Positions 8,606-52,580 of a stretch of DNA of 64,000 bases are shown one piece after another (the first letter of the stretch is position 1; every line of letters starts with the position of its first letter). This DNA is from Agarophyton chilense (lineage: Eukaryota; Rhodophyta; Florideophyceae; Gracilariales; Gracilariaceae). The DNA lies in contig JARGXX010000080.1 of the NCBI GenBank assembly GCA_030374765.1, forward strand, positions 2,108,001-2,172,000, in the 5' to 3' direction. The position numbers and the translations under genes are program-made. Below the pieces are notes generated by a model. It had not been told where the DNA came from and ran no database searches. It saw only the letters and a list, made by a program, of their open reading frames with translations.

Positions 8606-8610
8606 ATCAG
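8606..8610. repeat. Target-site duplication, left copy (ATCAG)
   Basis: ATCAG immediately precedes the left LTR and is repeated exactly after the right LTR at 15,374-15,378. A 5-bp duplication is typical of Ty3/gypsy integrases. Confidence 0.9.
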
Positions 8611-9524: not shown

Positions 9525-9526
9525 AG

Positions 9527-9544
9527 TGGTCTCCCGACTTAGAA
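9527..9544 (+). promoter_or_regulatory. Primer-binding site of element 2
   Basis: TGGTCTCCCGACTTAGAA starts two bases after the 5' LTR. The first ten bases are complementary to a tRNA 3' end reading CGGGAGACCA, which is the 3' end of budding-yeast tRNA-Tyr. Element B has nearly the same site at 21,693. Priming by tRNA-Tyr is therefore likely but depends on the host tRNA sequences. Confidence 0.7.
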
Positions 9545-9751
9545 TCCGTTCTCAGACTTTTGGGTTGGTTATCTGCGTGTTGGAATACCTCTTGGAAGAG
9601 GAAGCAACGTCGTGAAGATTTGTTGTAGTGTTCCCCTTTGGAAAGGGTGGAATTGGTTTTTATTTTTGTTTTGTGTTACGTTATCCGTTCTCCGGGAATC
9701 TCGTGATCGAATTTCATCGTTACCCCGAATCGTCGGTATCGTGCCTGCAGC

Positions 9752-11578
9752 ATGTCGCCGATTACCAGTGGTTCCAGGACTGGATCGAACCGTCAAGCGG
9801 ATTCAGTGCCCCCGGCCCCGCCTAGGTCGAGGAGCTCTATTCCCGAAGGTTGGAACGATTCTGGTATCGATCCGGACACTCGGAGAGCACCCTCAGTGGT
9901 TTCAGGTCCTCGAGAGGTCGTGGCTGTGGGCCCAGCTCCAGTGGTGGAGACCCCCTCAGCAGCACCCCGAAGTCGGGCCGACCCTGAATTACAGCGCCTG
10001 GAGACTCGAATTGATATCGCCAACGCGGCTCACATCGAGCTCCTTCAGAAGGTTACTACCCTCCGCCTCAAGGTGGAGGACGCCCAGGTGCGGGGAGTCG
10101 CCGATGACCTTCGTACCCTGAGGAGGGATGTGAACTCTCTTTTGGAAAGCTTTGGTACCCCTGGGGTCTTTATCCAGGAGTACCGGAGCCTCGTGGAGGA
10201 ACACCGCGTGCAAGCGGAACGCTTCCGAGCTCGGCTGGACACCCTCGAGGCCATTATCCGTATGGACAGAGACACAGAAGCCTCGAAGGATAAACCCGAC
10301 GTTTCGGAAGACGAAGAACACCGCTCCGCTAAACGGGACCGCCGCAAGTCCAAGAAGAAGGTTCACCTCCAAGAGGATTTATCGGATTCCGATCCCAATC
10401 GCTCGCCATCGAGTTCGTCCTCCGAATCTTCGGATAGTGAAGATGAACGCCGGTCATCCCGGGCGACTCGGTCAAAGGCTACTTACACCTCTCAAGGGGC
10501 AATCCGTACCCGGAAGAAGGGTAGGAAACACCTTGGATTAAGGGAGCTGAAGCCGACGAATCCTCTCTATCGGAAGCTGCTATCGTACCGCTATTACCGG
10601 TTGGATAACCCTTCGGGAGATCGAACATCCCGCGGAACGGGTAAGGTCAAGGACTACATCAAAAGGCTGAGCATCACCCTACAGAAGAGGGAGTTTACAG
10701 GAACAGACCCAATTCTAGTGCTCGATTTCCTTGCGAGGTTCGTCCAGGAGGCTGACATCCTCGGTATGAGTGAAGCGCAAGCGTATCTTGCATTACCCTA
10801 TTTCTTAAAGGGGATGGTTGAAGACCAGTTCAACTCCGTCCGTGGATCATCCCGAGCCTCGGAAGGGGGAGTCACGTGCTGGCCCGAAGCGGTGCTGTAC
10901 CTCTTGAGGTCATACGCTACTGGAAATGCGATTCATGAAGCAATCCTTGCATTAAGGGATACGCGGCAGAAGCCGATGGAAACCGAAACGGTGTATTCAA
11001 CACGCTTGAATAAAGCGTTTCACCGATGCGGGAATGTATTTCCCGCCTACGAAAGATGCTCCATGTTTGTGGATGGTTTGGACCCCTCGATAAGGGCATT
11101 GGTTGCCCGACATCGAAAAGAGAAGCGCAAGCTGCCCTACTTGGAATTGGTTCAGTACGCCCAGGCTGAGGGGGATACTCTCCGTGCCCGGCAGAACCGA
11201 AAGAGTCGGCCGACAAGTGCACTCCTCGCCGATGGAGGTAACTCGTCCTTGTCACTCGCAGGAGGCCCTGCCCCTGTGGGGGTCAATGATAACATTCACT
11301 TCATGGGAAGTAACCCCGAATCTATGCGTACGTCTGAGTTGCCGTCGACATCCGCTCCGACTACGGATGAAGACCCTGCGCTCTATACCCACGGACGGAG
11401 GGTGCCAGCCGCATCGCTACCTTTTGCGAATACCGCTGCTCGGTTCTCTCGCCTCGGATGGAGGGATACAGCACCACGTCGCGTGGATTCACGTCCACAA
11501 CCGAACCCGGCAGAGCTGATTTGCTATTTGTGTTACCTCCATGGTCACAAAGCACCAGACTGCACATTTCCAATGTAA
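9752..11578 (+). CDS. gag: Gag polyprotein of element 2
   Basis: This intact 608-residue frame starts at an ATG in the leader after the LTR and ends with TAA. The first 170 residues are proline/serine-rich and then likely coiled coil (regular leucines around residues 70-170). Residues 190-240 are a basic, Ser/Glu-rich linker. The capsid domain runs from about residue 290 to 490 (FTGTDPILVLDFLARF, LPYFLKGMVEDQFNS, FHRCGNVFPAY, YAQAEGDTLRARQ). Residues 591-604 are a perfect CX2CX4HX4C zinc knuckle (CYLCYLHGHKAPDC). Gag forms the particle and packages element RNA. It is the only uninterrupted structural gene of the three Ty3-type elements here that carry gag, and the only one with a canonical knuckle. 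The frame continues after the stop as coding-like sequence (next entry). Confidence 0.9.
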   Translation: MSPITSGSRTGSNRQADSVPPAPPRSRSSIPEGWNDSGIDPDTRRAPSVVSGPREVVAVGPAPVVETPSAAPRSRADPELQRLETRIDIANAAHIELLQKVTTLRLKVEDAQVRGVADDLRTLRRDVNSLLESFGTPGVFIQEYRSLVEEHRVQAERFRARLDTLEAIIRMDRDTEASKDKPDVSEDEEHRSAKRDRRKSKKKVHLQEDLSDSDPNRSPSSSSSESSDSEDERRSSRATRSKATYTSQGAIRTRKKGRKHLGLRELKPTNPLYRKLLSYRYYRLDNPSGDRTSRGTGKVKDYIKRLSITLQKREFTGTDPILVLDFLARFVQEADILGMSEAQAYLALPYFLKGMVEDQFNSVRGSSRASEGGVTCWPEAVLYLLRSYATGNAIHEAILALRDTRQKPMETETVYSTRLNKAFHRCGNVFPAYERCSMFVDGLDPSIRALVARHRKEKRKLPYLELVQYAQAEGDTLRARQNRKSRPTSALLADGGNSSLSLAGGPAPVGVNDNIHFMGSNPESMRTSELPSTSAPTTDEDPALYTHGRRVPAASLPFANTAARFSRLGWRDTAPRRVDSRPQPNPAELICYLCYLHGHKAPDCTFPM

Positions 11579-12292
11579 GAGGGTTCACGAATTATCGCTC
11601 AGTACGAGGCTCTGACCCCTGAGGAGAAAGCTCGAGTCCCGAGTAGGTCCTATGAGAAACAAAGGATACTCCGAGCTCACCTTGCTGACAGGGATACAGA
11701 ACTCGTACCCGCGAACGGGGAACAACCGGTCCCCTTCGAGGCAGCTGCACCGAATTCGCTGGGGTCCGCTTCGAAAAACTAGACTTCGGATACTCCCGAA
11801 CCTGAGCCCGCTCCCTCAAGGGCCCAGCCAACGAACTCTTACAGAGTTACTCCCCCACCGGAGGTAGTCAAGCCTCCTGGCTCTCCGCCTAAGGAGGGGG
11901 AGGAGGACTTAGTTCCTTCGCAGGACGATGTTTCGGCGTCAGCCAGTCGCCCTAACAGGGAATCTAGTTCTCACAGTGAGACGGCGAGCCCGACCGAGCC
12001 GTCGACAGAGAAGTCACAACCCCAGCGTATGGGTAGCGACATCACCGCCGACCCAGCCGAGCACGACGTCAGAAAAGATGACGAAAACCCGCCTAGGGAG
12101 AGTCGTGTGGAGAACTCCGCACCCGGAACGCCTACAGAGCCGACGATCACCCGCCGCCGCGGAAGAGACACTGAGGTGTCGCACACCCAAACCCCGCTTT
12201 CTCGGGAACGAGCTGTGTCAGCGGACCCGCACGGGGAAGATCTCGACGACCAGGTTGACCAAATTTGGCTCTCCGTTATGGAATGGGAATAG
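11579..12292 (+). pseudogene. Gag C-terminal extension behind two in-frame stops
   Basis: The gag frame continues past TAA at 11,576-11,578 with no shift: YEALTPEEKARVPSRSYEK, then a second stop (TAG near 11,780), then about 170 codons of Glu/Pro/Ser/Thr-rich sequence ending IWLSVMEWE and TAG at 12,290-12,292. The sense bias and typical post-knuckle wording suggest the ancestral Gag was longer and was cut by point mutations, or that the stops are read through. No protease motif (DTGA or DSGA) is present. The boundary with deleted pol is close to 12,300. Confidence 0.6.
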
Positions 12293-12649
12293 GAACTCCT
12301 ATGGAGACACTGGAACCCTAAGGAATGGGAAAGAAATGAGTGAGACCCGTCGGGGACAGCTCAGGAGAGTGCTAGCGCGTGCCTAAAGCGCCACCTCATA
12401 TCCGCTTGCGGAGTAGCAACCGGCGCCCGCGCATTTATGTGGCCCACGTCGAATGGCACCGAGCCAATCAAAAGGCTCTGACGACCAACCGTCGCGCAAA
12501 GCGCCTCCGTCGCACGGCGCGTTGCACAAGAGCAACCTTCGTCCCCGTAGCTCGGGTTGACGTTGAAGTCTTACCCCCCTGAGACTGGAGACGCTACCGC
12601 GTCGCGGTTTCTCAACTGTCACGTAATCTAAGAACGCTGTCGTTATCGG

Positions 12650-13082
12650 GAAGATCTCAGCTTTAAGAAGAACCCAAAACTGGGCCGTTTTGACTCCGTA
12701 GACGGAAGTTACAACGTAGCCCACAGGCCACTTGGCGCCGTTTGGACGAAGTGCTGAGACCCGCTCGCAACACGGAAAAGAACCCACCGGGGTGTGTCTA
12801 GACCCTACGTTGACACCCTCAAGGGAACTAGAGCGTTCCAAGATGGAAGAGAAGCCCGAACAGGGAAAATTGTACCCGCAGGAATTCGTTATCGATCGCA
12901 TCGTGCGTCACATCTACACCCCCGAGGGAGAAGTTCGCTACCAAGTCCGATGGTACGGATTCTCGCCTGATGAGGATACAGTGGAACTCATTGAGCACCT
13001 TCCGAGGTCTAAGGTTTTATCCTATCACCGACGCGCTCGGGTAACCTTGCCTCCAAGTCTGGATCGTGCCCAAGTCGGGTAA
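12650..13082 (+). pseudogene. Integrase C-terminus remnant plus chromodomain
   Basis: A short stretch around 12,680-12,760 reads FDSVDGSYNVAH and then PLGAVWTK, which resembles the end of Ty3/gypsy integrases, but in a broken frame. A frame with an ATG at about 12,843 then encodes a chromodomain: EFVIDRIVRHIYTPEGEV, RYQVRWYGFSPDEDTVELI and EHLPRSKVL, ending at 13,082. Chromodomains direct integration toward marked chromatin, and the aromatic residues (RWYGF) needed for the fold are present. The catalytic DDE core that should precede it is absent, so the internal deletion runs from about 12,300 to 12,650 in present coordinates. Confidence 0.75.
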
Positions 13083-13249
13083 GCCACCACGGGAACTGGT
13101 GTGGATGCGACCTCAAAGTGAGGAAGATGTTGAACCTCTGAAGAGGAATTGAGGAGAGTATTCCGAAGAACACGTATTGAGAGGGAATGTTTACTGGCCC
13201 TCGGCCTAGCGCCGTTAACCGGGGAACACAACACCGGTTATCGGGACAG

Positions 13250-13425
13250 TTTATGATGAAAAAAGGAAAAGAAGACCCACGAAGTGGAGAAGAAGATTAA
13301 GAAGAAGATTGGACCCTAGGAAGGGAAGAAGACGAAGACGAAGATGAAGAAGATCCTAAGAAGGAAGAAGATGAAATAGAAGTTAAGATCCTAGGAAGGA
13401 AGAAGAAAAGAAGTTATGCAAATAT
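13250..13425 (+). repeat. GAA/AAG-rich purine tract
   Basis: About 175 bases are dominated by GAAGAAGA-type sequence with two CCTAGGAAGG blocks. The tract separates the chromodomain from the antisense frame. It could be an internal (second) polypurine tract, since purine tracts resist RNase H and prime plus-strand DNA, or simply low-complexity expansion. Element B has a shorter purine tract in the same position at 28,361-28,380. Confidence 0.6.
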
Positions 13426-13480
13426 CAGAAGTTTACTATTGTCGCCAAGCTATGGACTCCACAATTGCCCGAAGGCGGAA

Positions 13481-14417
13481 CTACGGAAAGCCCGAGGAGG
13501 GACCCGCCCCACCGTTGGGATTCTGACCCTGATGGTACGCCGAGGCGAAAGCCAACATCTGGCTCACATCCGTCATACCCGGTGGAATCGGAATGCCTGC
13601 GTTCACGAGGCCTTGTCGCACACTATCCGCTGGCGGAGTGGCAACCGGCGCCTGCGCAAGGGTGTTCACACCCCACCCGGGGGGAGCAGATGGACCGCCA
13701 CCGGATGCATTCGCCGCCGCAGCTGAGGTCGTTCCCACTGGTTGGAAGGGTGCAGATGGCTCCACAGGGAGTACTCCCCTAGGAGCTGGCACGTCGTTAT
13801 CCAACGCTGGATCGTCCAGGGCTACTGGAGGCTCGTACTCGTAATCGTCGGTATAAATGAACCCCGTCGGGTGTCCCACCGGCATCGGTCGAGGCGAGTC
13901 AATCAGAGCCCGTGCTTGCGCCGCGCGGATGCGAACCCCTTCGAAGCGATTGTAATAGACCCAGTTACCGGCGCCCGGATCGTACCGGCCAGGAGACCTG
14001 TCTCACGCGGATCCTTCCCCTGCGGGTTGATTTGCCACTGGAACTCGATCCCATTGGGTGTTGTCGATCATGTCCAAGATTGGATACAGGTCCTGCACGT
14101 TGCTGGCCGAACCCAACGCTGGGACAAGGTCGATCTGACGCATGATGGTCCGTAGCATCGGAGAAATCTCCACCCTGCTGGGGAGCTTCGTTGTCCGCCG
14201 GCGCGGAGGCCGATGGCCCCGAGAGTGGGTTGATGACGTATGGGTTCATTCCCTTGAGAGGGCTAGTCGAAACCGCTGCTGCGAAAAGTTGCGTATCGCT
14301 GAAAGTCGGAGGAGTAGAAGAAAATGGTACCGATGTGCCGGTTTTGTGGCGATCCTCAGAAGTGGTGAAGGACCCCATTGGGAAAGAAGTATGTATAGTG
14401 ATCGGAAAGTTAGACAC
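13481..14417 (-). pseudogene. Antisense reading frame of element 2 (about 310 codons)
   Basis: Read on the minus strand, a coding-like frame runs from just inside the 3' polypurine tract to 13,481. It has one apparent frameshift near 14,165 and one TGA near 14,010. Recognisable order: Ser/Thr/Pro-rich N-terminus (SFPMGSFTTSEDR, STPPTFSDTQLFAAAV), a middle block (SPMLRTIMRQIDLVPALGS, QDLYPILDMIDNTQWDRV, NWVYYNRFEGVRIRAAQAR), then an acidic and Pro/Ala-rich C-terminus (TDDYEYEPPVALDDPALD, PIPPGMTDVSQMLAF). The first ATG is at 14,378; the open frame begins upstream at a TAA next to the polypurine tract. I do not recognise the protein. Some plant Ty3/gypsy elements (such as Grande) carry an antisense gene at this same place. 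Element B has one too. Confidence 0.6.
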
Positions 14418-14446
14418 CCGCGGCTCGGAATGTTCTTCCTCGTCTT

Positions 14447-14459
14447 AAGGAGGGGGAGG
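14447..14459 (+). promoter_or_regulatory. Polypurine tract of element 2
   Basis: AAGGAGGGGGAGG lies directly against the TGTAG start of the 3' LTR. This is the expected position and composition of the plus-strand primer. Confidence 0.9.
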
Positions 14460-15373
14460 TGTAGAGCAACGCCCAGTTAGGGGATACTTGAAGATGCAAC
14501 TCATAGAATGAGGATTGAACCCTCCGAGGGTTATGATTATGATCCCCTCTACGGTGTGCTGAGGTGGCACTGTTTTCTGGTTATATTTCGCCTATAAGGG
14601 AAACTTCGGATGGCCCATGGTTGGATTGGCCCCGTGATACACGTGGCTTAATTTTGGCACCGATTTTCGGATATTTGTAGAACGTTGGACTTTTGGGCCC
14701 TGACAGTTGGATCTCCACGTGTATGGCCCTGAGCAGGTGTGCACTACTGTAGAGTTTAGTTAGTGGGCCCTACTTAGGGAGATGAGATCTGACAGTCCGA
14801 AGCTCAAAGTAAATGGTAACCAAGGTTGGTCTTCGATACCTTTAGAGGTTCTTCGTCGCCATCGTTTCGGCCTTACAACCCGGAACGGGCTCTGGTTAGC
14901 AACGCCTGCGTAGGGACACGACTCCACTTGGAGAGTGCCCACGTTGGAGTTCCGTGCAACCACCCCCTTGGGACCGCTCAGACGACCTGCGTGCACGATA
15001 CCCCGTGGGGGTTCTGCTTACTTGTTGCGTGCTTTTTGTGTTTCCTTTCGAGGACAGGTTTTCGCCCCTGTATTGGGTTTCTTTTGTTGTTTCGCCCCTT
15101 TTCTGGTTCTCGGGTCTGGTGCCTGTTAGTGCCCGACCCTCGCCCCGTTTTTCCTCTTCGCCGGATTTTCCCCCATTCTTTGGGATACCCATACCCATTC
15201 CCGATCCAACGGTTTCTACCCCTCACCTCCGTCGGTACTGCCGGAATCCCCCGTGGGAGTTACACCCCACACTACGGGTGGAACGGAGGGCTCTGTCTCT
15301 GAGTCTACCTCCCCCAGGGAGCAAGGCTTCGAACACCTTGAGGGCACTTCCCGTCGCCGGGTTTTGCTCCACA
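14460..15373 (+). repeat. 3' LTR of element 2
   Basis: This 914-bp copy of 8,611-9,524 differs at about 18 positions, mostly transitions. It ends CCACA and is followed directly by the ATCAG duplication. Confidence 0.95.
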
Positions 15374-15378
15374 ATCAG
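15374..15378. repeat. Target-site duplication, right copy (ATCAG)
   Basis: Exact repeat of 8,606-8,610. Confidence 0.9.
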
Positions 15379-16855: not shown

Positions 16856-18650
16856 AAACCTGAGCTGACATAATTCTCATTTATGAAGAAAGTGGAGGCA
16901 ACAATGGTGGTGTCAAATAACGGACAAATCACTTTAACATCAAGTATCACATGGTAACAAAACCCCGTAGAGAATGGAATGTTCTCCAATTAGCATATCT
17001 TCACGAACACCAGGGCAACACACTTAGGTACCAAGTCATTGCAGGGCAACAAATAAAAACGACTTCGTGAAATAATTGAAGTGAAGTGTCTAAGTTTGCA
17101 ACGACGGGAGTTCATCGAAAAAGGGCTCAAGAAAGTTCCAAAATAACTAAAATTATATTTTGGAATAGACTCAGTATTTTTGGACACTCACCACTGGCTG
17201 AGTAAATTTCTGGGAGTTTGATGAAAATAAAATGTTATAATTAGAGTAACAGAACAAAACTGAGAAATGCAATTCTGTGATCAAGGTGCCACCCAGCATT
17301 TGATGTATAGAAAAAGCTGCGCAGTTTTATAAAACTTGTAGAAGTCACCAAAAACAATAAACTCAAGGACTGAGTCTTCTAATAAAGTGCATTCTTTTGC
17401 TTAGAACTGATTCGTCGTCGAGTTTGCATATCTCAGAATCAAGCATTTACAATTATAGTTCAAGCCGGCAATTGCCATCAGAGTTCAAAACTTCCAACAG
17501 TTAAAAAGAAAAAGAAAAACTAAAAACTCACTCGTTTTTCCCACTTGAAATTGAAAGTGTTTCTTTAAGTAGTAATCAAAGTTCATAGACATTATTTTTT
17601 ATATAGATACAATGCACTGCGTAAAAGCTCTTTTGGATGGCTCTTTGTGTTTAAAAAAACCATCTTGAGACAGTTCAACTCGTGGTAAAGAAGTAAATCA
17701 CAGATAGACATGTTTTAGCTTGAAAACAATTTTCACAGGTTTTATTCGAATTAACTCGGTCGTGGCGTGCAACGATGTTTATCTACGAAAGTAATGCATT
17801 TTTTATTTTAGATTAAGCATTGTGTTTCAATAAATCATTTAGATATATATTTGTCGAAGTTTTGGTTTAGGGAAATGCATCACGTTACGGAATTGATAGT
17901 AAAGTGTTTGTCATTTTGGTAATCCGGCTAGTCAGAGAAGTTTATTATCTCAGGAGAAATCATCTTCGCATAAAATTTACGAAAATTGGATTATGTGCAG
18001 GCTCTATTTGTATACCAATAAGTCCCTATTTTAATTTCTGTGGCAAAATCACTTAAACTAGTGAAAATTTAAATGAAAATAATAGATCCCAAACTTTCTT
18101 TAAAAACATATATAATATTTATTGAATTACTTTGGCAACGGGGAACATTTTCTATTTTCTATTACACTACATACAAAGGATTTGTTTCTTTTGTCTAAAG
18201 AATAGACTACGACGAAAACCGTCAATCATTGAGTGTATGACTATAAACACTTTCTGTACTTTAAGAAATGGGCTTCGGTAATCGACAGTATCGCCCTTGG
18301 CGATCCATTTCAAATACTAACGATTGTTCTTTCTTCAATAAGGTCTTTTTTCGGAAAATCATGCCAAACACAGCTTCTCTTCTAAGTTGAATAAAGAAAT
18401 CCAAAGACAAAGATACATCAACCAATAAATACCTTAAAATTCCTGATCATCATTTTTTTGACAATTTTCTTTAGATTGATACTAACTAAAAAAAACCCAA
18501 GAAGGAAATGTTTTCGATATACCGATTTTGTTTTATGTAAAACTAGTATTTATTGCCATGCCAACCTTATCTCATCTCTTTCGATTAATCATCGTAGATA
18601 ATTCGTTATGAGACGGTTTCAGCTCTGTTGCCTTAAATCTTAGTATTTCC
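16856..18650. other. AT-rich region without recognisable gene
   Basis: Both strands carry only short frames. Base composition falls well below that of element 2 and matches the GT77-like gene that follows. Nothing repeated elsewhere in the window was noticed. Confidence 0.5.
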
Positions 18651-19874
18651 ATGCATTCGAAATTAAAAATCCCAATTTTTTTATTGCTGGGTGCATATGG
18701 AATATTTTCAGTAGGAAGGGTGTTCGTGAGAGGTCGTCTAAATGTTAAATCTAGAGCATACATGCAGCATAAGACAGAAAAATTCCTACAAAAGAATTTT
18801 AATTTGAGTTCTGAGGTTCTATGTGAAGGAAATCTCGGACAAGCTATTCATATTACTTATAAGGTATACAACAGGTTACAGTCAGATTCATCTTACCAAA
18901 ACGATTTTTTTTTTCAAAGTAGGATATTCAGAAAATACATAAATATATATTCAGGATACCACGGAATGTGTCATGTTAAGGTTTTAAGCTCTTTCGTAAA
19001 ATACAAATATTTTTGGAAACCTTTTATACTTATGGCGCTGTTTGAAGTCTTCAAGAAAGACCTTGTGTACCATGATTTAGATGTTTTTGTTTACAAAAAC
19101 TACCTCAAAAGCTTTTGGAATCGTTCTCGGCTTATATATCTTCAGTATGATCTTTCCACACAAAGTATAAACGCAGGTGTAATTTGGCTACCATATACTG
19201 CAACCTCACTGAGTATTGTAAGAGAATGGAGCTCTGCACTGAAAAGGGAAAGTATATTGGATGATCAAATAGTATTGAATAAATTGGCTGATAAGTCCAC
19301 TGAGTTTTCTGTATTAAAACACGGAGTGGGGGCTGATCACTATCTTGGGTCTACGAGAAGAAAAAATGCTGGGCCCCTACTTTCAAGCCAGGTTTATACA
19401 TTTACCGTAATTTACAAGACTTTTTCTGCACTATACTGTTTATTTCTCATGGTTTTAATGCGAAAAAAAGGAAAAAATCCCTTGTTTAGCAAATTGCATG
19501 GAAGAATATTGTATGTAATTCCTTTTGTCTTTACTGTTATTGAGATTTTTTCACACATTCTTTTTTATAGTTTTGGCGGTCAAATAATATGTGGATCACC
19601 AAAGTACATGAGGTTTTCCAATATCATTCCTTTGTCTGAAGGCTGCAGAATGTGGAAATACCGTAGACATCTTATGTTCTACGATGGGTCGTGTCTGAAA
19701 CACACAATTATTAGTACTTTGGGCTGGAATGACGAAAAGATAACAGGGATTCTTTTTTTTCTGAGACGAAAGTTTTTCATGCAAACACTTATAGCCACAG
19801 CAATCATTTTGAAAACACTGGATAAATTTTCTCAGGGGGGTGAGGGAAACAACCTTTTCTTTCAATTTGAATGA
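18651..19874 (+). CDS. GT77-like nucleotide-diphospho-sugar transferase, membrane bound
   Basis: This 407-residue frame starts at ATG and ends at TGA with no interruption. Residues 7-24 form a signal anchor (IPIFLLLGAYGIFSVGRVF), typical of a type II Golgi glycosyltransferase. The catalytic core has the DxD metal/nucleotide-sugar motif VYHDLDVFVYKN (D142, D144), then INAGVIWLPYTATSLSIVREW and ILDDQIVLNKL (D204, D205). That order (DxD, NAG, DDQ) is the signature of the Nucleotid_trans / GT77 group, which transfers sugars such as xylose, arabinose or galactose onto glycoproteins or polysaccharides. Unusually, two further hydrophobic segments follow at roughly 250-275 and 288-310, then a Cys-containing tail. 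The exact sugar cannot be predicted. It is one of the few intact host-type genes in the window. An intron at either end cannot be excluded. Confidence 0.75.
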   Translation: MHSKLKIPIFLLLGAYGIFSVGRVFVRGRLNVKSRAYMQHKTEKFLQKNFNLSSEVLCEGNLGQAIHITYKVYNRLQSDSSYQNDFFFQSRIFRKYINIYSGYHGMCHVKVLSSFVKYKYFWKPFILMALFEVFKKDLVYHDLDVFVYKNYLKSFWNRSRLIYLQYDLSTQSINAGVIWLPYTATSLSIVREWSSALKRESILDDQIVLNKLADKSTEFSVLKHGVGADHYLGSTRRKNAGPLLSSQVYTFTVIYKTFSALYCLFLMVLMRKKGKNPLFSKLHGRILYVIPFVFTVIEIFSHILFYSFGGQIICGSPKYMRFSNIIPLSEGCRMWKYRRHLMFYDGSCLKHTIISTLGWNDEKITGILFFLRRKFFMQTLIATAIILKTLDKFSQGGEGNNLFFQFE

Positions 19875-21186
19875 AATATGACTAACTATATCTCAATATT
19901 TGTCATTGCTTCTAACAACCAGTGACAAATATAAACGTGTATAATAATAAAAAAACTAAGTATAATAGTAAGTGAAGTTGAAATATGAAGTGATTTCAAA
20001 TATCCGCAGCGGAATTTCAAACTTTTGAAAGTAGTTAACCTTACTGCAGTAAAGTATCAACGAATTTAATGATGTCTAACTAATAATTCAAGAGAATCTG
20101 AAGTGAAAAGGGCTCTATTTCGAGTCCACTATTCTTGACGGATTGCCTGTTTACTTCAATGCCTTTCGAAGTTTACATAGGGCCATTCTACTGTATGTGC
20201 TTCGGAGTGTAGAAGGCCGAAGTCCTGAAAATCAGTCGATTTCAGATGTTAGGGCTTGTTTCTTTTTCATAAGATTTCATATAAACAAAGCAATATAATC
20301 ATCTGGAGAAAATCCAACGCAGTACACCATGCCATGCACGATATACTCGTCAATAATTCTTCTTTTACACCGCAAGTGAGCCGGCCGCTGCCCAGTTCTT
20401 CGTTATTCCTGTACTCACCATTACTGAAAGCCACTTGGAATACGATCTTTACACAAGCATCTGCATCGTTTCTGGCCGCAAAAATGACATTTCAGCAGCT
20501 CTACAAAATGCGTGTGGCAGTCTTTGATGTTCTCTTCTCTGACCTGGCAGAAACCCGAACCCGGTTGTAGCAACTACGTGCAGTTCTTTTGAGATCTGAC
20601 TTCAGCTTTCAAGCATATTAGAAAACTTGATTGGATAATTCATTCTATCATATATGCCGAGTAACAAAGACGCATTTTCAGACGCTGAGCGCTCATGCGT
20701 GCAAAAAACCAGTTCAAAAGCAGAAATATAACAAGTCTAGAGTATGGTGTGTTCCCGTCCACGTTATGGTGTTCGTTAACATTCGATTTCAAGCACGACC
20801 AAACTATATCTATATTTGGTGCCTCTTTAAAAATGCAGATTCGACTGTTTGTTATGTTTTTCGTAAAATTGTTCTCGCCCTGACGAAACTCTCCCAAAAC
20901 TGTCATTTCCAAGAACGGCTCAGGCAGGGATGCAAAAAGCCATTCATTTTCACGAACTGCGTCTGAGTCCACTTAGAAAAATTATTACCGCACTGCATGA
21001 ACTTGCCATCAAAATCAAAAGATCACAATGCCGTGATGCCCCCGGTCCGCGTAAGTGTCGTATAGTTGCGGAAGGGCTGACCATTGAGGTTGTCAATATA
21101 CTACGCTGACATTGTAGGTGATGGATGCGGGGGATCATCGGCCATGGAGCTCCTGGTGAGCTACCATCTAGGTGTTGTCAGCCACG
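19875..21186. other. Intergenic, no gene recognised
   Basis: Short overlapping frames on both strands near 20,250-20,970 show no family motif. Sequence directly after the GT77-like gene is AT-rich and could hold its 3' untranslated region. Confidence 0.4.
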
Positions 21187-21301
21187 TGTAGTGTAGACAT
21201 TTACCTTCTGGTTGAGTAATTGTTAGTACTTGTAATTGGAAATAAAATTTTTTTAGTACAGGAGTGGCGTGGCCACCTGGCAATGTAGCCAGTACTGGCC
21301 A

Positions 21302-21326
21302 GGTCTCTGACACTAGGTCAGAGACC
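21302..21326. repeat. Perfect 10-bp hairpin, 5-base loop, in the LTR
   Basis: GGTCTCTGAC, loop ACTAG, then GTCAGAGACC. It could be an RNA or DNA stem-loop in the LTR transcript leader or promoter. Confidence 0.8.
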
Positions 21327-21360
21327 GTGCCTTGGTGGCAGCTCCCAGGTGATCTGGAGA

Positions 21361-21390
21361 GTGCAGTTCACTGCATATAGGGAACTGCAC
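21361..21390. repeat. Perfect 9-bp hairpin around a TATA-like box
   Basis: GTGCAGTTC and GAACTGCAC flank a 12-base loop that contains CATATAGG. It lies only 35 bp downstream of the previous hairpin. Confidence 0.75.
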
Positions 21391-21692
21391 CTCCCCCATC
21401 CTAATCTGATAAAGACAGGCACCACTTGGGTCACGACTACACCTTTTGGTTCATCGTTTCTCAACTACTTCACAGGATTTCCCGCGCGTTGACGCCTACC
21501 ATCGTTCACCTACACGGTACAGGCTAGTTGCCCCGCCGTTTGCTCGTGCGGGTTTTCACGGTGCCCTGTTACCATCGAGGTTTATTACGTTTACATTCTA
21601 AGGTTGAGCCTCACCACGCTTCCTACGGTTGAGCGTCACCACCCTCCCGAGACAAGACAGTAGCATACCCCAGAGGTGATTGTACGACATTT

Positions 21693-24043: not shown

Positions 24044-27000
24044 TGGCCGAACTCAACCTCCCAGTGGAAGGCAAATCGATACCCAGAACCTTGAAGGTGG
24101 AAAATAACACGTCACAACCAGTTCCGGTTTGTCGTATGAAGTACAATAACTATAAAGTACGTGCTTCAATGTGTTTCTCCGATCGCCTTGCGGTTCCGGT
24201 CACCTGCGTGTTGGATACGGGGGCCAGCCAAAACATCCTCAACTACCACGTCATACCTGAGGTTGTACTTCGGAACTTGAGGCAACCTTCCGACAACAAC
24301 CCGCTGGTGGATGCAAATGAGTGCCCATTAAACCTTTGAGGTATGCTCACCACTGCGGTGCAGCTCGGACACCTCAAGGTAAGACTTCAATTGTTTGTTG
24401 TCGACCGTTTACCAACAGACTGTCTACTAGATACGAACTTCATTGACAGACATGTCAAAAAATCCCTTCCTGGTTCCCATACCGTCGCCCTACGTCACGG
24501 GGGACGAATTTCTATTTCAGGTAATACGGAAACCAAACGAGGATGGTTCATCAAACCGAAGAAGACGATATCCACCGAAACGGTCTCCAACAAATTGCGC
24601 ATTACCAAACAGGTTGTTATCGCGCAAATGAACCCAATAATGATACCGGTGTCGTGGACGACCCCCGGGCTGGTCATACTACAAAACCATCGGAGGTTAG
24701 CAAATCAACACCTCACTTTGATGGCCAACGGGATTGTCGACAACATCCCAAATCAACGCTTTAACGTGTGTCTCAGTAACTTCAGCAGTCACGACGTGAA
24801 GTTGCCGAAGAATACCAATGTTGGCATCGTACTACCGGCACCACAAGGGGTCTTCACCGTAGGTTACACTGATCTCGGAGAGGTCGCCTTCGATAAGGAA
24901 GAGGGGTGTGCCAATGCGTTGAGAACCACCAAGGTATCGATAAACACTAAATTGGAATCAAAGCTAACCGATAAGGCATCGGTAGAGAAAGAAGAGGAAC
25001 ATGACACTGAGAGACAATGGGAAGATACAGTCCAGATCGGTGAAGATAACGGAGAACTGCGCGGCCGTATTCTCGACCGTCTGGAGGTGTTCGAAACCAT
25101 GTGGGCAGGCCATCTGGGCCAAATTATGGCCACACAGCATCGTATGGAGCTCCTTGCTGACTCTAAACCGATTCATCCGCAACCATACCTTGCAGGTCCG
25201 AAGGCCAGAGAAGTAGAACTCAAAGAAGTGGAGCGAATGCTCCAAGAAGTTGTAATTAAACATGCCAACTCAGATTGGGCTAGTCACGTGGTTCTGCTTC
25301 AGAGGAAAGAGGATAGCCGTACGAGGTTCTGTGTGGACTACAAGAGTCTCAATAGCGTGACCGTCAGGGATTCGTATCCGACATTTAGAATGGATGAGTG
25401 CATCGACTCCTTGGGAGATGCACAGATATTTACCACGTTGGATGCCAATTGTGATTATTGGCAGGTACCTGTAGTTGAAGAAGATCGAGACCAAACGACC
25501 TCCACGTTCCTTGCAGGTTTGTTTCGCTTCATGCAGATGCCATTCGGGTTGTGCAATGCTCCAGCCACCTTTCAGAGGGCACTGGACATCATCCTTTCGA
25601 AGGTTAAGTGGGCAACCGCCTTGGTATACATCGATGATGTAATCATCTACTCCAGATCAGTAGAAGAGCATTTTTCTCACGTGCGCACCGTACGAACCCT
25701 CCTAGCTGAGGGGGAGGTTACGCTGAAGCTACGCCAATGCGTCTTCTTTACCAGAGCGGTTGAATACCTGGGCCACATCATAGGCCGTGGTACCCTAATG
25801 GTTGCGCCGAGCAACATTAGAGCCGTGCAGGAGTTCACGGTGCCACGATCCCAGACAGATGTACGATCCTTTACAAGTTTATGCAACGTCTATCGTCGCT
25901 TCGTGAAGGGATTCGCGAAAAGAGCGGCTCCCCTCAACAAGAAGCTCCAGAAAGGTGAACTGAAATGGTTTGAGAATCTATCGAACGACGAAATGAATAC
26001 CTTGGACGAATTGAAACGAGCGCTGTTGCCGCCGCCAATCTTAGCGTTACCGAAAACAGGTCTACCGCACACGCTGGATACAGATGCATCCCATGCCCAA
26101 ATTGGTTGTTATCTGATGCAGGAGCAGCACAACGGAGACACATTACCTAAAGGATACTGGAGCCGCGCTATGAATGAGGCGGAGCAGAACTACACGGTAA
26201 CCGAGAAGGAATTTCTACGAGTAGTTTGAAGCATGTTGATGCTCCGTCCTTTTCTTTATGGATAGCGCTTAACGTTGCGCACGGACCACGACGCCTTAAG
26301 GTGGATCTCCGGACTCGCAGATGCGTCGGGTAGACTTTCCCGTTGGAGGTTGAGACTGTCGGAGTTTGAATACGACGTTCAGTACCGTCCAGGTATCACG
26401 CATGACATAGCTGATGCTATGTCACGCTTAAACACCTCAGGGTTAGAGACAGAACCTGTGGACGATGATTTCCCTTGATTTTTGGTGTCATAAAACCAAA
26501 ATGGTACCGGCGAACACCTACAAGGATGTTGGGACTTACCTGAGGAAGGTGCCTTGCGGAACGCCGACATGGCAACGCAAATACTGACCATAGATGAAAC
26601 GAACGTCATGCCCGTAACCCAAGAGGAGTTCCTACGAAAACAGGTCCGGGATGCGTACTGAAGAACTTTGGCTGACCAAACTGGTTTCAAAGGATCACCA
26701 TTCGATGTGGACCACAATTGGTACATCGTGAGAAGGCCATCCTTGGATGATAGCCTTCAAAAAGTGGTTCCAAAGGCGCTGCGCCCAAGAGTCTTGTATC
26801 TCGCGCACTACCCGCGACTATCGGGACACTCCGGTGCCATAAGGATGTATTGCACTTTGAGGCAACAGTTCTATTGGCCTCATATGGCCTATGATGTCTA
26901 TACCTTTGTAGGTCAATGCCAATCCTGTGTTCGTACCCGCGGTGGTATTCGAAAGCATCGAAAGTATCTCAAGCTGTATCCAGCAGCGCGTCCACTGGAG

Positions 27001-27477
27001 GTTGTTGCAATAGACCTTCTAGGACCACTTCACAAGACCAAGAACGGGTATCAGCACATTCTAGTGATCACCGACAAGTTCTCGAAGCTCACGAGAGCGA
27101 TACCTTTAAAGGAGACCAAGTCAACAACGCTGGAAATCGCGTTCCTCAACAATTAGGTCTACCCATATGGTGCACTACTGTACCTACTTACCGATAATGG
27201 TTCAAACCTGGCATCGAAACTCTTCGAAGCAGTCTGTAATGTCTTGGGTATCAAGCACTATTTCACTACTGCCTACCACCCGCAAACGAACGGTCAGGTC
27301 GAGCGCTTTAACCACACATTGGTATCAAGGCTACGACACTATACAGAAGAGCACCAAACTGGGTGGGATGAGCTGGTGCAACCGCTCACCTACTCTTATA
27401 ACCTTCAGGTACACCGGTCAACGCAGACCACTCCCTTTGATTTGGTTCTTTCGCGACACCCCCCCCCCGGAATGTAG
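24031..27477 (+). pseudogene. pol: Pol of element B: protease, RT, RNase H, integrase
   Basis: The frame is -1 relative to gag, which it overlaps at 24,031-24,043. Protease: LDTGAS at 24,211. RT: DWASHVVLLQRKEDS, motif A TTLDANCDYWQVPV, MPFGLCNAPATFQ, and catalytic YIDD at 25,627-25,638. RNase H: LDTDASH, TEKEFLRV and TDHDALRWI. Integrase: HHCC zinc domain (AHYPRLSGHSG, CQSC), then VVAIDLLGP, LLTDNGSNLA and GQVERFNH, so the D,D-35-E triad is intact. In-frame stops occur at 24,337, 26,227, 26,263, 26,476, 26,491, 26,659 and 27,154. By comparison with the family, several replaced Trp (TGG to TGA or TAG). The only indel is at a ten-C run (27,459-27,468), after which coding continues in another frame. 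Recently diverged in sequence but not expressible as one protein. Confidence 0.88.
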
Positions 27478-28335
27478 TTCAGAAAGATCATACCACCAGC
27501 ACTGCAGCTGGCGCGCTGAACCCTACCCAGGACAAGCGGAATACCCTTGTGAGGTTGAAGAGGCCTCTCAAACATGCAGAGAGCTGCCTCACTGCAGCCC
27601 AGAGACGGTACAAGGCCGACTACGACCGTAGGGTAACCAAAGTGGTCTCTGTATCTTCGGGACAATATGTCTACATAGACAACCCACCTTCAAGAAAAAG
27701 ACCACGGCCGGGTGATGAAGCAGACGATGGAGCTATTGACATAGATATCAATTCGAAGCTTCTACCCAAATCAGTAGGACCTTATAGGGTATTGAACGCA
27801 TCAGACCACACCGTTACGGTTCAAGAAGATGGAATACCGAATACGATATCAATTGACCGTATTACAGTAGCACCTGAAACGGGTCAACATTGCATTGAGA
27901 CAGGCACCTCAGCCTGATAGGCCAGAGCTATAGCTCGGCGCACTCCACTTTCGGAGGACTCCACCCCAATTGAGGTGAACGATGATCGTCAACGTGATGA
28001 TCCGGATTACAACCCTCTAACAGGGACGGAAAGTGAACCATAAACTGTAACAGCGGGAGCTCCCGACCCGGCTCCCACACATGAAGCTCCAAACTGGGAA
28101 CATATGAACCGTCGAGGTAGCGTTCCGCCGAAAGATCAGGACCAAACCTCAGAGTAATTTCCCATGGACCGTCTTATGTGCCACACACGAACCTAAAATG
28201 GTCTGAAGTACACCGTCAGCTGGTACGGCTGGGGTCCAGAAAGGGACTCCTTCGATCCCGCAGCCACAATACCCCCACACTTTCGTATGAGGTATAGGTG
28301 CCGTCGCAAGCCGCCGATTCCTGCAGACGGCTAAT
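27459..28335 (+). pseudogene. Integrase C-terminus and chromodomain of element B
   Basis: After the C-run the frame continues with NVVQKDHTTSTAAG, LKRPLKHAESCLTAAQRR, SSGQYVYIDNPPSRKR, LLPKSVGPYRVLNASDHTV and TISIDRITVAPE, the C-terminal part of a Ty3 integrase, ending TGA 27,915. The same frame goes on through five further stops into a chromodomain at about 28,164-28,335 (MDRLMCHTRT, then LKYTVSWYGWGPERDSFD and PAATIPPHFRMRY). The WYGWGPERDSFDP block fits the chromodomain aromatic cage and aligns with RWYGFSPDEDTVEL in element 2. Confidence 0.75.
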
Positions 28336-28360
28336 CTTAGACCTTCGTGGTACTCAGGCC

Positions 28361-28380
28361 TAAGGAAGGGGGAGAAAAGA
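28361..28380 (+). promoter_or_regulatory. Internal purine tract of element B
   Basis: CCTAAGGAAGGGGGAGAAAA follows the chromodomain and precedes the antisense frame. It resembles the 3' polypurine tract of element 2 (AAGGAGGGGGAGG) but no LTR follows. It may be an internal plus-strand primer. Confidence 0.5.
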
Positions 28381-28605
28381 CGCCGTTTTCCGCAGAAGGT
28401 GGACGCATATGCGTGTCAGATTACCTACAAGGGAGGGCACGAAAGAACAACCAAATGTAACAGTAGAGGAGACCAAATGAGACAACAATTTACTTTAAGA
28501 AGGACCTGTTGGTTTAGAAGCAATGGAATCAGGAGGACCCGTGTTATTGACCACCTACGTGGGAAAACTTGCAAAAATGCTAGGAGCCATTGACCTAGGA
28601 GGTAC

Positions 28606-30666
28606 CTAAGGAGCGGTAGTCCCACCACTTAGGAGAGGAGTCAGAATAAAAAGAGTATGAACGAATGGAACCGCCCGAGCGGGCTGCAAAACCGCAGCGT
28701 TCAAGTTAGCACCTAGAAGGGGATCCGTCAAAGGGTCAGATGGCGTAGCAGCAGAGACGCTTGCCAGATTTTCAACCTGACGGATGGCCAGTTGGTACAT
28801 GTCCAACTGGAACTGATACCGGAACTCATCAAGTTGGTTCAGCGCCTTCAAGTAGTGCGCATGGCGTGGCAGCAAACCTTCAAGAAGCATTAAGGCAGTA
28901 ACCACGGATGTAGGCCCAGCCCTCTGAAAGTTGGTGACGCAAGAGTGGTGAATTCGAGCCAGCAATTCGACCAAGGCCGGAGAACTTATCCTAGGTTGAG
29001 GCGGAGGACGAGCAATACCCGCGAACAGAAGTCGAACCGGACCAGCAACCCGCGAGGAGCTCGGTTGAGTAGGATTCACACCCGTAGGGATAGGCTACTT
29101 ACGACCTTGAGGTAACGGCTCGGACGGGAAGGGACCAGCATAACGACCAACTGGTGTCTCCACAGTACCGTGATAAGGTTCGGAGCTGGCCGGAGCTCCA
29201 TAAACAGGAGTCTCCCCGGGATAATATTGGGCGTTGCCAGGCGCAATCTCCTAAGTTGCGGGTTCAAAAGCCTCCCAACCTTGATGGGAACCCCAATGGT
29301 AATTCTTGCTCTGATCGCGATACGAGCCCAAGTCCTTCACGATATAATCGGTCTCCTCCACGATGTTCTCGTAACCAGATCGGAAAATATGCTGGGCAAC
29401 CCTCGGAGATATGAAGAATATGCAACCTACAGGTTGAAGACCATCTCGGTATATGTCAGAATCGGGATTGCGACAATCCCAATCGATACCGTAACGGGCG
29501 GTCTCTAGAGCCAGGATGGCAACCAACACGGTCCACTCCGAGAGGGCAATCGACCAAATGAGGTAATACCGCTCTAGGCTCAGGGAAATTTGACTCCTGA
29601 AGTACGCCGAAACTGGCGGGGTGGGCACGCTCAGCGATAACGGAACGTCATAGGACTCCCATAACTCCAGTCGAAGCACGTACCAATCGCGTCTCCCCTT
29701 CGTAGGTTATGAGAAGTACATGACGTTATGAAATGTATGTATAATGCGATTGTAAGAGTTGCGAGTGCGAACGCGACTCTCCATCGCTGCATCCTCGCCC
29801 CACCTACTACGGTCAGCCCAATTGATAATGGTGAAAGGTCGATTCAGGGAAACCAAGTCAGTTAAAACCGGAAGCTAAGTCTCCGGAATAGACGGGTACT
29901 GGCAGACGTGCACCACCAATCGACGGTAGTAATCCAGCTCCAGTTCGATGCACACATACGTCAAGTCGCTCTGATATATCGGCGGGATGAAATACCTCAA
30001 AGGTGTATGACGCTGCCGACTCTGGTAACATTCCAGTCGACCCTAACGAGGTTGAGACTCTTGGTCCCGTTTCTTCAAAAGCAATGGAACTGAGGAAAGG
30101 CGCTCGCAGTTCCAACGGGATAAACCCAAGTAGGTATCTAATTGTGGTCTGGTAAGAGCTGCTGGCAATGACGAATTACCCACCGCCACAGGCTAATCGT
30201 GCTTCAACAGGTCATTGTTCGTCACCTGGTCGAAGCTACTACCAAAAGGTCCATACTGACTCGTCGTCCGTTTCGCCGCACCGAATGCGAGGTTGTGAGC
30301 CCAGTTGGTTTGTGTTGTCGGAGGAAGTCCACCACTGCGTTGGTATGAATCAGCCGGAGTCCAAGGGGATAACTGTGTCGCAGGGACAGGCACGCTGCGA
30401 AAACCAATGTTGGTAGGCGTTGGAGAAGTCGACCGAGTCACCCTCTTGGTAATACCACCGCATCCACGGCCACGCGATGGGCCGCTAACTGACATGATTG
30501 GGAAGGTCGTAGCTCGACCCGACGAACGAGGTGATGAATCGAACTCCACCGCCGCGGTGAACACCAGCTGGTATTCATCCTTTTGAAGTGGCGCCTCCTC
30601 GGTCTGTTTTGAGGAGACGGCCAACGTATCCAAACTTCACTCCGACGAGACATCGTACGGCATCAT
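28606..30666 (-). pseudogene. Antisense reading frame of element B (about 687 codons)
   Basis: From ATG at 30,666 (or 30,663) on the minus strand one frame runs 2.06 kb with seven stops and no frameshift: TGA 30,637, TAG 30,193, 30,043 and 29,875, TAA 29,707, TAG 29,251 and TAG 29,095. The wording is clearly protein-like: EAPLQKDEYQLVFTAAVEF, SSGRATTFPIMSVSGPSRGR, LTYVCIELELDYYRRLVVHV, DWYVLRLELWESYDVPLSL, YYLIWSIALSEWTVLVAILA, RVAQHIFRSGYENIVEETDY, then Pro-rich sequence and a helical end (LNQLDEFRYQFQLDMYQLAI). The frame could continue past 28,606 to about 28,362. No family recognised. It holds the same position as the antisense frame of element 2. An envelope or nucleocapsid origin is possible but unsupported. 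Confidence 0.65.
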
Positions 30667-31749: not shown

Positions 31750-34230
31750 CCAATGTACTACGCCGCCTGACTTTTGAAGCACGATTCTTCGTGGGTATGA
31801 CAAGGATATCAACTTTCACCCGACTGCATCACAAGTTTATCACCTGTACACCCATGGGATATCAATGTGCCTCACTTGGTCAAGAATTGAATGTCAGGAC
31901 GCTGCTTTTGAATCCCCTGTAAATGAGTTCAGTGGAGAAGTTACACGATACAAATAATGTCCTTACTCAGAAAGGTACCGAAAGTTTTTCAGGGGCGGGA
32001 AATGCTGCATTCCTTTTCAACGTCTTTTATACCTTGCGAAAACCGAATCAAATTCAAGAGAATGACGCTGCAAAACGTCTCCCGGTATCGAGCTACGAAT
32101 GAGTTAATGATAATGAGAAACCCGTAAATGTACACGACAATCTTGTTCTATGCCGATTAGGAAATTCCAGATGAACAAAAGCTTGGGTATGCTTAGATCT
32201 ATACTCAGCACGTCTTTCCCTTGATTGACGAGTCGCATACCAATGGTCCAGGATCTCCAGTTGTATCGCGTGTGAAGGCTTACAACTGCTCAGAATTAAC
32301 AACAGTGTAACCATCACAGATGCTTGCCTAGATCGCTTTTCACTCTACATCTTTAAATTGTTGTATATGTTGTTCAGAACTTCCCGATAAAGCGGATATG
32401 TGCAAATGAGCTCCCCCAATTATTTATGAGCTCCATCTTCTTTCTGCAATGACCACGAGAACGTGTTTTCTTCCAAGATATAGACCCTCCATGTTCATCA
32501 CCGTTTCCGTTGTCATTCGAAGTATTTAAATAATCAGAGTCAAGAGTCCTAGAACTGTTACCCACTGCACTTTACCATTCTTCATTCGAATGACGAGTGA
32601 ACTTCTGCTTCCTACATCGAAATGTCAGCTTCTTCGAATGGGGTCCGTAGAAGGTACCTCTTTTCTCTTCTGGCAAAAATGGTTTGGCTGTAGTTCTGCG
32701 CGTGTACTGCTGCGTCCAGAAGTTCTTAATAGCGAACAACTCAAGTGAGATCTTCCTGATTCTACGGTAGTAGCAGCAAACAGCGATTGTAAGGCATATA
32801 TACGGAGCTAATCATGCGCAAGCAACCATTCGTAGGCTTGAAGTGCCCATCTCAGCCATGAGACGGAGCAGTGCAATGTAAAGACCATAATTTTTTTAAT
32901 TGCAGGGAGGCTACGGGTGAGTATGGCTTCTTTGGAGACCACGGATACCTCCAGAGCAGCAGCCGGGGCACCCGTGGGATCTCGACCTCGCGCACCGCTC
33001 GATCAGCTCTTTAGCGTCAACAGAACAGGCTGAATACAGGTTTTGGGCTGGTTTGGTAGGATCTTTGCATCGATTACTGGACTGTAGTCGGCTGTTCAGC
33101 TGCGTAGACAAAAGTAATGAGCAGGTGCAAAACTAATGGTTTCTGTCTCATTTCGAATAATTTGTCCACCTCTGGCAAATTGGGCTCTAGCCAGAAGTGG
33201 TTCGGTACCTGGTAGGAGAGAACGATTTCGCTAGTTCCAAGTACCTGTATAGATATCTCGATACAGGATCAAAACGGTCGGCGCACTTGATCGCAACGCT
33301 TATAAGTTGCGAGACCATTTGTATTATGCACATCTACGGGAGGAAAGAACACCAACGACAGAGTTTGGACTGTTGAGGTGTTCCTAAGCTTCAAAGACAT
33401 GGTGGTAGAGATGGAACAACCGTTGATCGGAAAGCAGGCTAGAAGGAAACTCATCGAAGATGATGCTACTCAGTGTGGACTGTAAAAGGAGACCTCTCTC
33501 GTAAAATGGAGTAACTGAAAGAAACTGTCGACGATTGAATTGGCCTAAAAACACAAGTTTGGGGTAGTAAATGTTTGAAAGTAAGAGGCAGGGCTCAGGA
33601 GGGATGCCAGAAGTTCTCGAAAAAGAAAACATGAAAATTCACCCGAGCTCGGCCGGAGCTGGAAGAATTTTTGACACATTTAGCTGGATTCATTCAGATT
33701 AAATGTTTGTAGGCCACCATAAAAAGTGCTAGAGATGGTTCTCATACGCAACAGTGGAAAGCTCACAAAGACCTCCCTCTACCTTTGTCACAGAGTACAT
33801 ATTTCTCTACCTTGTAGAGCTCGTACACGACCATTGCTGCCTGAAGCAGAAGTCAAAAAAATTACAATAATACGTGAGATCAGAGATGCCTTATCAGAAG
33901 GCACGTTTTGACTGATAATGACCATCGAATAAAAAGTTTTGTTGAGTTTTTTTGAGAAAAATTGTTTAATAAGCGTTTCTTGGGTAAGTTTCCTGTACAC
34001 TGGGTAGGATTTACTCGGATGAATTGAACCTCTTCGTGATTGTACGATTCATCTTTTACTTACTGCTTGAAAAACTTGATATGTTTCGTATTGGATTTTC
34101 AAACTGCGACTGATGCTCAATCTGCTTGGTGTTCATTGCATTCTTTAGCGTACTGCATCATGCCGATAGTTCAAAGCATTGGAAATAGGAGCTATATGGG
34201 TGTAGTATAGTAACCAATCCATGCCGATAA
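31750..34230 (-). repeat. Repeat family X, copy 1 (unrecognised, coding-like)
   Basis: The reverse complement of this segment aligns collinearly with 58,550-61,250. Shared landmarks on the minus strand include AACTATCGGCATGATGCAGTA (here near 34,160), CAGCTAAATGTGTCAAAAA (33,680), CTCCATTTTACGA (33,510), GAACCATCTCTAG (33,735) and GCATTTCCCG (near 32,000). Translations also align: CQKFFQLRPSSGEFSCFLFR against CQKFFQLQPSSVGFSYFLFR, and QHFPPLKNFRYLS against WHFPSLKGLHYLF. It is broken by many stops. No domain was recognised. A splice-acceptor-like TTGCAG/GGAGG lies at about 32,905 on the plus strand and is probably fortuitous. Confidence 0.7.
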
Positions 34231-36860: not shown

Positions 36861-37782
36861 TGATCTAGCTCACCGACGGGTAAAAGCGAAAGCACTGCAG
36901 GGATATCGTAAGAACCTTGGTTATTTCGTGGAGTGGCTCGCGCAAAAACCAGTCGCTCGCCGTCGATTTAGGAAAGCAGAAGAAGTTGATTAATAGTTCA
37001 CGAGGTATTGCATTGATCTTTTTCATGGTAATCAACAATTGAAGGCAAAAGGTGTAGCTCAGGCAAAACCAGCGTTGGAATTTTTTCTCCCCGAACTCAG
37101 TGGGAAATGGGTATTGGCGAATCAAAGAATACAGGTCTGGACAGTATCGCGCCATAACCTTCATTTTTGCGTGTGTCCGAAAATCGTTGTATACGGATTA
37201 GCATTGGATCTTTTTAAGCACGAGGAGCCAGATCTGGGGGTAAGATTGCTGCTGCTGTTTGATGGGTATCTCAGGCTACGGAAATTATTGCAGCTAAAAG
37301 TATTGGACGTCGCCATGATGGCGCTATCCGAAAAGCGGTCGCACTATGGAATGCTCTATATTGCGATAGGAAAACGTGGCCGTAATGAATCCGCCACGAT
37401 AAGGACGTATTTTTTGGCGATTTTGTTGAACAGGTTGGTTAGAAGAAGGGAGTTTGCAGAAGCAGAAGTTCTTTTCTCGTATCAACCGGCCCGGTTACGG
37501 GCCGGTCCCCGAGAAGCCGTCAAACGTCTAGGGATTCCGTTCCCAATTACTCCACACATGCTTAGGTATGGCGTGGCGACCACCGATAATCTTTATGCTC
37601 GCCTCACCGATCAGGATATTAAATGTCGAGGTCGTTGGCAAAGCGAGAAGAATTTCGAGGGATCTATTCAACCACACAAATTATACCAATTGCTCAACGA
37701 ATTATCCCAGGCCCAACATCAGTCATTTGAGGCGGTTTACACCAGGGGAGACACATCTTTCAACGTGCCGCCGCCAGATTAG
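36840..37782 (+). pseudogene. Tyrosine recombinase of DIRS element A
   Basis: The N-terminal core-binding part (GLFDLAHRRVKAKALQGYRK, FVEWLAQKP) ends in two adjacent stops at about 36,991-36,996, then the same frame continues to 37,782. Catalytic features: GYLRLRKLLQL (Arg I), IGKRGRNESATIR, PHMLRYGVATTDN (HxxR), CRGRWQSEKNF (the W/H position) and the probable nucleophile Tyr in IQPHKLYQLL. This enzyme recombines the circular cDNA into the genome. Except for the two stops the catalytic half is intact, over 247 codons from 37,039. Confidence 0.82.
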
Positions 37783-52538: not shown

Positions 52539-52580
52539 CAGATCAGGGTTGATAAGCTCCCAGGAGTGCTTTTCACCATA

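Follow-up and report, generated by a model that had tools for sequence, protein, structure and literature searches.

Here, we describe a gene carried in antisense orientation by a Ty3/gypsy long terminal repeat (LTR) retrotransposon of the gracilarialean red alga Agarophyton chilense (Gracilaria chilensis). The element, which we call element B, is located in a 64,000-nucleotide stretch of the genome assembly (contig JARGXX010000080.1, C80:2108001-2172000), hereafter the window, and its relatives were sought throughout the 79.8 Mb of the genome, contained in 135 contigs. A minus-strand reading frame downstream of pol is the end of a genuine gene that has decayed, and the window copy of the element is a truncated relic. 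We are close to certain that this is a coding, selected and element-borne gene. Very probably, this gene, placed antisense between pol and the 3' LTR and homologous to genes of at least three other element families, encodes an accessory protein that would act in trans; the element that carries it is of the Ty3/gypsy type, and its pol ends in a chromodomain-like stretch. The frame, its position, the selection on it and its homologues are established observations.

A preliminary description of the window reported an antisense frame of 687 codons at 28606-30666 with seven internal stops and no indel. The frame and its stops are present as claimed, and alignment with copy L003 is gap-free over 2143 bases. 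However, the ends of the frame need to be corrected. The stop at 28606 is not the stop of the family, which maps to 28495-28497. Furthermore, the matches of all 39 other copies to the window end at query base 2027-2033, i.e., near position 30637, and therefore 30638-30666 is flanking DNA, leaving 28495-30637 as the homologous part. Counting the terminal one, there are 9 stops in the frame within this interval, compared to 21 to 42 in the other five frames, and in 2000 dinucleotide shuffles the lowest stop count for the best of six frames was 11, with a mean of 21. The window copy also carries the highest share of private substitutions among the 40 aligned copies (3.41%).

Family B has 249 candidate copies in the genome, 40 of which were scored: the window and 39 others that are 89-91% identical to it, these being the copies most like the window region. 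It had been proposed that the gene would be refuted if other copies lacked the frame; it is present in all 40. In the aligned copies the frame extends over ∼842 codons and contains 1-9 stops per copy (terminal included), versus 12-42 in the other five frames. By hand count, frameshifts are absent from 24 of the 40 copies, and three are free of both frameshifts and internal stops. The start and stop of the gene were examined in 38 copies, excluding the window and L036, which are shorter. An in-frame stop lies upstream of the frame in 37 of the 38, and an ATG follows 22 codons after this stop, again in 37 of 38, giving a gene of 821 codons. The terminal stop is kept in every copy with letters at that position (32/32).

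The gene of element B sits between pol and the 3' LTR on the strand opposite to gag-pol. Pol and the antisense gene converge without overlap, with ∼160 bp from the pol stop to position 28495, and the pol stop is kept in 18 of 18 rows, representing 15 copies (three were entered twice). In copy L041 the 3' LTR starts ∼690 bp beyond the antisense ATG, and an LTR beyond the antisense gene is also seen in L043 and L045. The Ty3/gypsy order of reverse transcriptase (RT), RNase H and integrase is found in B, as in another family described below (family C), in separate frame pieces. Scores of the element B pol end against the Pfam Chromo model are 18.7 bits in L005 and 15.1 in L031, both below the cut-off of 25.1. 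At L042, L044 and L054, antisense genes of other families lie near or inside B copies and one another, as if through end-to-end or nested insertions.

In order to classify variants among the copies, each was assigned by the codons carried in real copies. Variants in a single copy mostly arose after insertion, and variants in many copies date from the time of element multiplication. The ratio of nonsynonymous to synonymous variants was 2.70 (1095/405) for private variants and 2.72 (402/148) for variants in two copies, a class that is inflated by near-identical duplicates. The ratio was 1.67 (145/87) for variants in three to five copies and 0.63 (32/51) for those in six or more, which are mostly synonymous. 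Compared to the private class, that of six or more copies has a ratio of 0.23 (p 4e-11 if variants are independent), and in the other five frames the latter class gave between 1.0, for the pol-sense frame that shares third positions, and 4.0. Widely shared substitutions are distributed over codon positions 1, 2 and 3 as 18, 18 and 50, versus 549, 525 and 558 for private ones (p 4e-5), a codon-position bias whose absence would have spoken against a gene. When expected values are taken into account, the ratio goes from 1.00 to 0.30 from private to shared variants in the antisense gene, and from 0.98 to 0.34 in the last 210 codons of pol (36 rows). Purifying selection on the antisense gene is thus about as strong as on pol. 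Segments of 90 codons inside the frame range from 0.15 to 0.59, two of them at 0.58 and 0.59, and the segment over the frame start and the preceding stretch gave 0.97. The preliminary description had the frame under coding selection until recently. This is right as far as the period of element multiplication is concerned, in which selection acted, but private variants now look neutral.

The frame is not confined to family B. In family C (L053 and L054), gag, RT and a chromodomain on one strand are followed by an antisense frame of 611 codons, and Chromo scores are 26.7, 29.9 and 26.1 bits, above the cut-off. A chromodomain pol end in family D faces an antisense frame open over 471 codons in L057, with a Chromo score of 30.6 bits in L057 and 24.7, below the cut-off, in L056. 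Likewise, the chromodomain pol end of family A (33.9 bits, L060) faces an antisense frame of 581 codons. The orientation antisense behind pol is therefore seen in A, B, C and D, and placement between pol and LTR was located in B and A. The C family was searched with 419 residues of one of its proteins (1630 candidates, 100 scored), and in the family A search 150 rows were scored among 1127 candidates. The A, C and D antisense proteins are mutually 34-40% identical, and wherever blastp aligned antisense proteins they were 21 to 40% identical. Profile comparison of B with A, C and D gave a score of 54.1 (probability 85, E 6e-6, 268 columns), whereas 40 column shuffles scored no higher than 23.5 and reversing either side gave about 20. 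In addition, blastp of the B antisense protein, in a small search space, matched P0006, a protein described below, at E 7e-10 and D at about 1e-7. By these comparisons, the antisense gene of B is taken to share ancestry with those of three or more further chromovirus families in the genome. The suggestion of a new accessory gene of this lineage is therefore supported for an element-borne gene, with the correction that homologues occur in other element families too.

Homologues are also found in sequence databases. A first protein search, in a database of 5.8 billion and with scoring of the 7996 candidates that shared most words, identified a single relative, P0002, an "unnamed protein product" of Agarophyton chilense. 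Its residues 90-612 map to one genomic copy in three pieces at 97-99%, which points to A. chilense or a very close relative as the host. A profile search detected BWQ96_10156 of Gracilariopsis chorda (P0007), with 41% identity to A, and the further homologues P0006, P0009, P0012 and P0015-P0018; P0008, P0010, P0011, P0013 and P0014 are additional profile matches from A. chilense. In a ten-row tree, A groups with P0006 (100/98), D with P0015 (95/100) and, more weakly, C with P0009 (86/85). The place of P0007 is not settled, and B forms a long branch of unsure position. Such a tree would fit families that are older than the species.

Searches of Pfam, NCBIfam and PDB sequences placed the antisense protein in no family. 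Neither TRP28 (Transposase_28, PF04195; threshold E 1 for P0001 and 0.5 for A6) nor the plant mobile domain (PF10536) had a match in P0001 or in any of the seven members of A6, and structure work on the antisense proteins gave no lead to function.

A second element of the window, element A, bears on how the product may be supplied. Its antisense frame ends at 14444, 15 bases from the LTR, and a 950-bp deletion, whose ends are identical in L061, L062 and the window, has taken out most of the conserved core. By hand count, 23 of the 150 scored family A rows have the 254-codon frame found in L061 and L062 (the alignment comprised these two and the window), and 36 have a 640-codon frame that is free of stops where it matched. 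Moreover, no RT or integrase frame is listed in the 4.9 kb between the element A LTRs of the window. Of 40 copies scored, the window among them, 8 match window positions 11000-14000 throughout, and in the remaining 32 the match begins only at 11783. Copies of element A without RT and integrase therefore seem to have multiplied too. The multiplication of family A copies from which most of the antisense gene is missing is what would be expected if its product is supplied in trans, and it seems that the antisense product, like pol, is supplied by other copies.

Transcription of the gene could start from its own promoter within the stretch between the ATG and the 3' LTR, or from the 3' LTR read backwards. 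The protein might then act in trans on element RNA or on the pre-integration complex, as proposed for GENE23 of the plant element Grande, and by analogy with HBZ of human T-cell leukemia virus type 1 (HTLV-1). It is possible, though short of probable, that a single antisense gene has been part of red algal chromoviruses from a time before Agarophyton and Gracilariopsis split, that it encodes a trans-acting factor of an undescribed protein family and perhaps fold, and that nonautonomous derivatives exploit it as they do pol. If so, antisense control would have evolved in chromoviruses separately from the cases in plants and fungi. A role as a nuclear regulator acting in trans, modelled on GENE23 and HBZ, is the more tentative proposal.

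Several observations weigh against a selected gene with a trans-acting product shared among the families. First, the 40 family B copies were sampled by their likeness to the window region. Second, the segment test is noisy: the last 83 codons of the frame gave 0.81, and a value of 0.60, about as low as the 0.58 and 0.59 of two segments within the frame, came from the 90 codons that open the upstream stretch, which has no open frame there. Third, B compared to family C alone gave a profile probability of only 2.5 (E 0.019), and no B-C match was found by blastp. Fourth, the predicted structure of the B protein is poor, with a mean predicted local distance difference test (pLDDT) score of 33, and because the protein folds badly its role rests on analogy. 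Fifth, B alone is basic overall (isoelectric point 9.6). The isoelectric points of A, C and D and of six foreign homologues fall between 5.1 and 6.4, an acidity that argues against a simple nucleic-acid-binding protein. Finally, the multiplication of family A copies without the core indicates that the gene is not needed in cis there, which fits a dispensable gene too.

Other explanations of the frame were weighed against that of an accessory gene. It is unlikely that the gene encodes a second structural or envelope-like particle protein. Its large size would suit such a role, as would a hydrophobic stretch in B with a Kyte-Doolittle score of 2.47. However, the matching helix scores 1.06 to 1.44 in A, C, D, P0006, P0007 and P0015, and P0009 reaches 2.15 at a different place, so there is no transmembrane segment common to the family; antisense placement is also unlike that of env. 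We consider it very improbable that another element or a captured host gene landed backwards in one family B ancestor and was simply carried along as a nested insertion, even though the origin of the gene is obscure, with no Pfam match, and single capture events have been discussed for other elements (PMC7264820). Homologues lie antisense behind pol in four families, and purifying selection on the gene is about as strong as on pol. In addition, the pol proteins of C and D are 58% identical, those of B and D 49% and those of B and C 38% (over a longer stretch), against 21 to 40% for the antisense proteins, among which blastp gave no B-C alignment; the families differ in the same order in both proteins. 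Capture may nevertheless be the ancient, ultimate origin of the antisense gene. Slightly less credible still is that counter-transcription yields double-stranded RNA that limits the element, the protein being a by-product. The convergent layout would favor this, and such a role has been proposed for plant elements (PMC7264820), but neither codon-level selection in the frame nor protein homology across families and to Gracilariopsis is accounted for; RNA and protein roles could be compatible with each other. Lastly, a chance open frame arising from base composition or constraint on the other strand, as the stops and lack of a recognizable family in the window copy alone might suggest, is rejected, since none of the 2000 shuffles was as low in stops, pol ends at 28332, ahead of the frame, codon-level selection is evident, and the frame is kept in 40 copies with homologues in other families.

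An antisense accessory gene in this position of a Ty3/gypsy element has precedents. Gene23 of Grande and the related open reading frames (ORFs) of RIRE2 are the same known layout in plant Ty3/gypsy elements, gene23 having its own promoter and a nuclear protein (PMC7264820); here, the host is a red alga and the elements have chromodomains or, in B, a chromodomain-like pol end, and the likeness is by description, not sequence. In Retand, an antisense ORF between pol and the 3' LTR is common to many element clusters (PMC11963269), as here. However, Retand belongs to a nonchromovirus lineage of flowering plants with TRP28 (PF04195), which had no match in the proteins scanned here. The preliminary description stated that antisense genes at this place are known only from some plant elements, which does not hold: according to PMC7264820 and PMC8365987 (citing Zhao et al. 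2011), the Ty3/gypsy element Boty of the fungus Botrytis has an additional antisense gene, brtn, likened here by description rather than sequence. HBZ of HTLV-1 is likewise an antisense retroelement gene with a nuclear protein (PMC11963269, in part), but it is retroviral, and we draw an analogy of layout with no claim of homology. A literature search on red algae and retrotransposon antisense or additional genes found no report among the papers listed, with subscription papers thinly covered. The layout as such is therefore already known from plant Grande and Retand and fungal Boty. What appears to be new is the protein family, the phylum and the sharing between families of chromoviruses.

Even for plants, what antisense accessory genes of LTR retrotransposons do is still an open question (PMC7264820, PMC11963269). 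The red algal elements offer an independent case in another phylum, with four families within a single genome, candidate copies in the hundreds, some frames that are still open, and natural gene-deleted derivatives. Copies with and without the gene permit comparative tests of action in trans. The protein family would also aid annotation of red algal genomes, in which such frames bear the labels "hypothetical" or "unnamed."

Table 1. Features of elements B and A in the window (window positions)
Feature	Position	Strand	Basis
Element B antisense accessory gene; decayed copy, truncated to roughly the final 714 of 842 codons	28495-30637	-	Copy alignment, selection, shuffles
Break point; antisense 5' end with ATG, stretch to 3' LTR and 3' LTR itself absent from window copy	30637-30638	.	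Match end in 39/39 copies; LTR layout in L041, L043, L045
5' LTR of element B, 634 bp, TGTCG...CGACA	21056-21689	+	blastn to LTRs beside three other copies; ends read from the sequence
pol piece of element B: RT and RNase H	24340-26229	+	Pfam RVT_1 E 4e-23, RT_RNaseH_2 E 6e-19
pol piece of element B: integrase zinc-binding domain and start of core	26662-27156	+	Pfam Integrase_H2C2 E 1e-15; rve E 0.013, under its cut-off
pol C-terminal end of element B; chromodomain-like stretch ∼28164-28280 (counted back from stop in L005), pol stop 28332-28334	28164-28334	+	
Gap between converging genes	28335-28494	.	5 variants common to six or more of 34 rows, no visible frame bias
Element A	8610-15374	+	LTRs 8610-9525 and 14459-15374, 98% alike
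gag-like frame of element A	9707-11578	+	CCHC-like motif by eye; no convincing Pfam match
pol end of element A	12720-13082	+	Read by eye against L060 (Chromo 33.9 bits)
Homologous antisense gene of element A, most of conserved core deleted	13481-14444	-	tblastn with family C protein, 30% over 213 columns, E 6e-13

Elsewhere in the window, a 420-codon frame at 18612-19874 (+) has a weak match to nucleotide-diphospho-sugar transferase (PF03407, E 2e-4, 21.9 bits against a cut-off of 22), and a 343-codon frame at 51549-52580 (-) has an RT match slightly below the cut-off (E 2.5e-6). A 261-codon frame at 36997-37782 (+) shows a weak match to tyrosine recombinase (PF00589, E 6e-4, below the cut-off) and perhaps belongs to another kind of mobile element. 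Positions 31929-34200 and 58582-61075 form a diverged inverted pair that is ∼69% alike.
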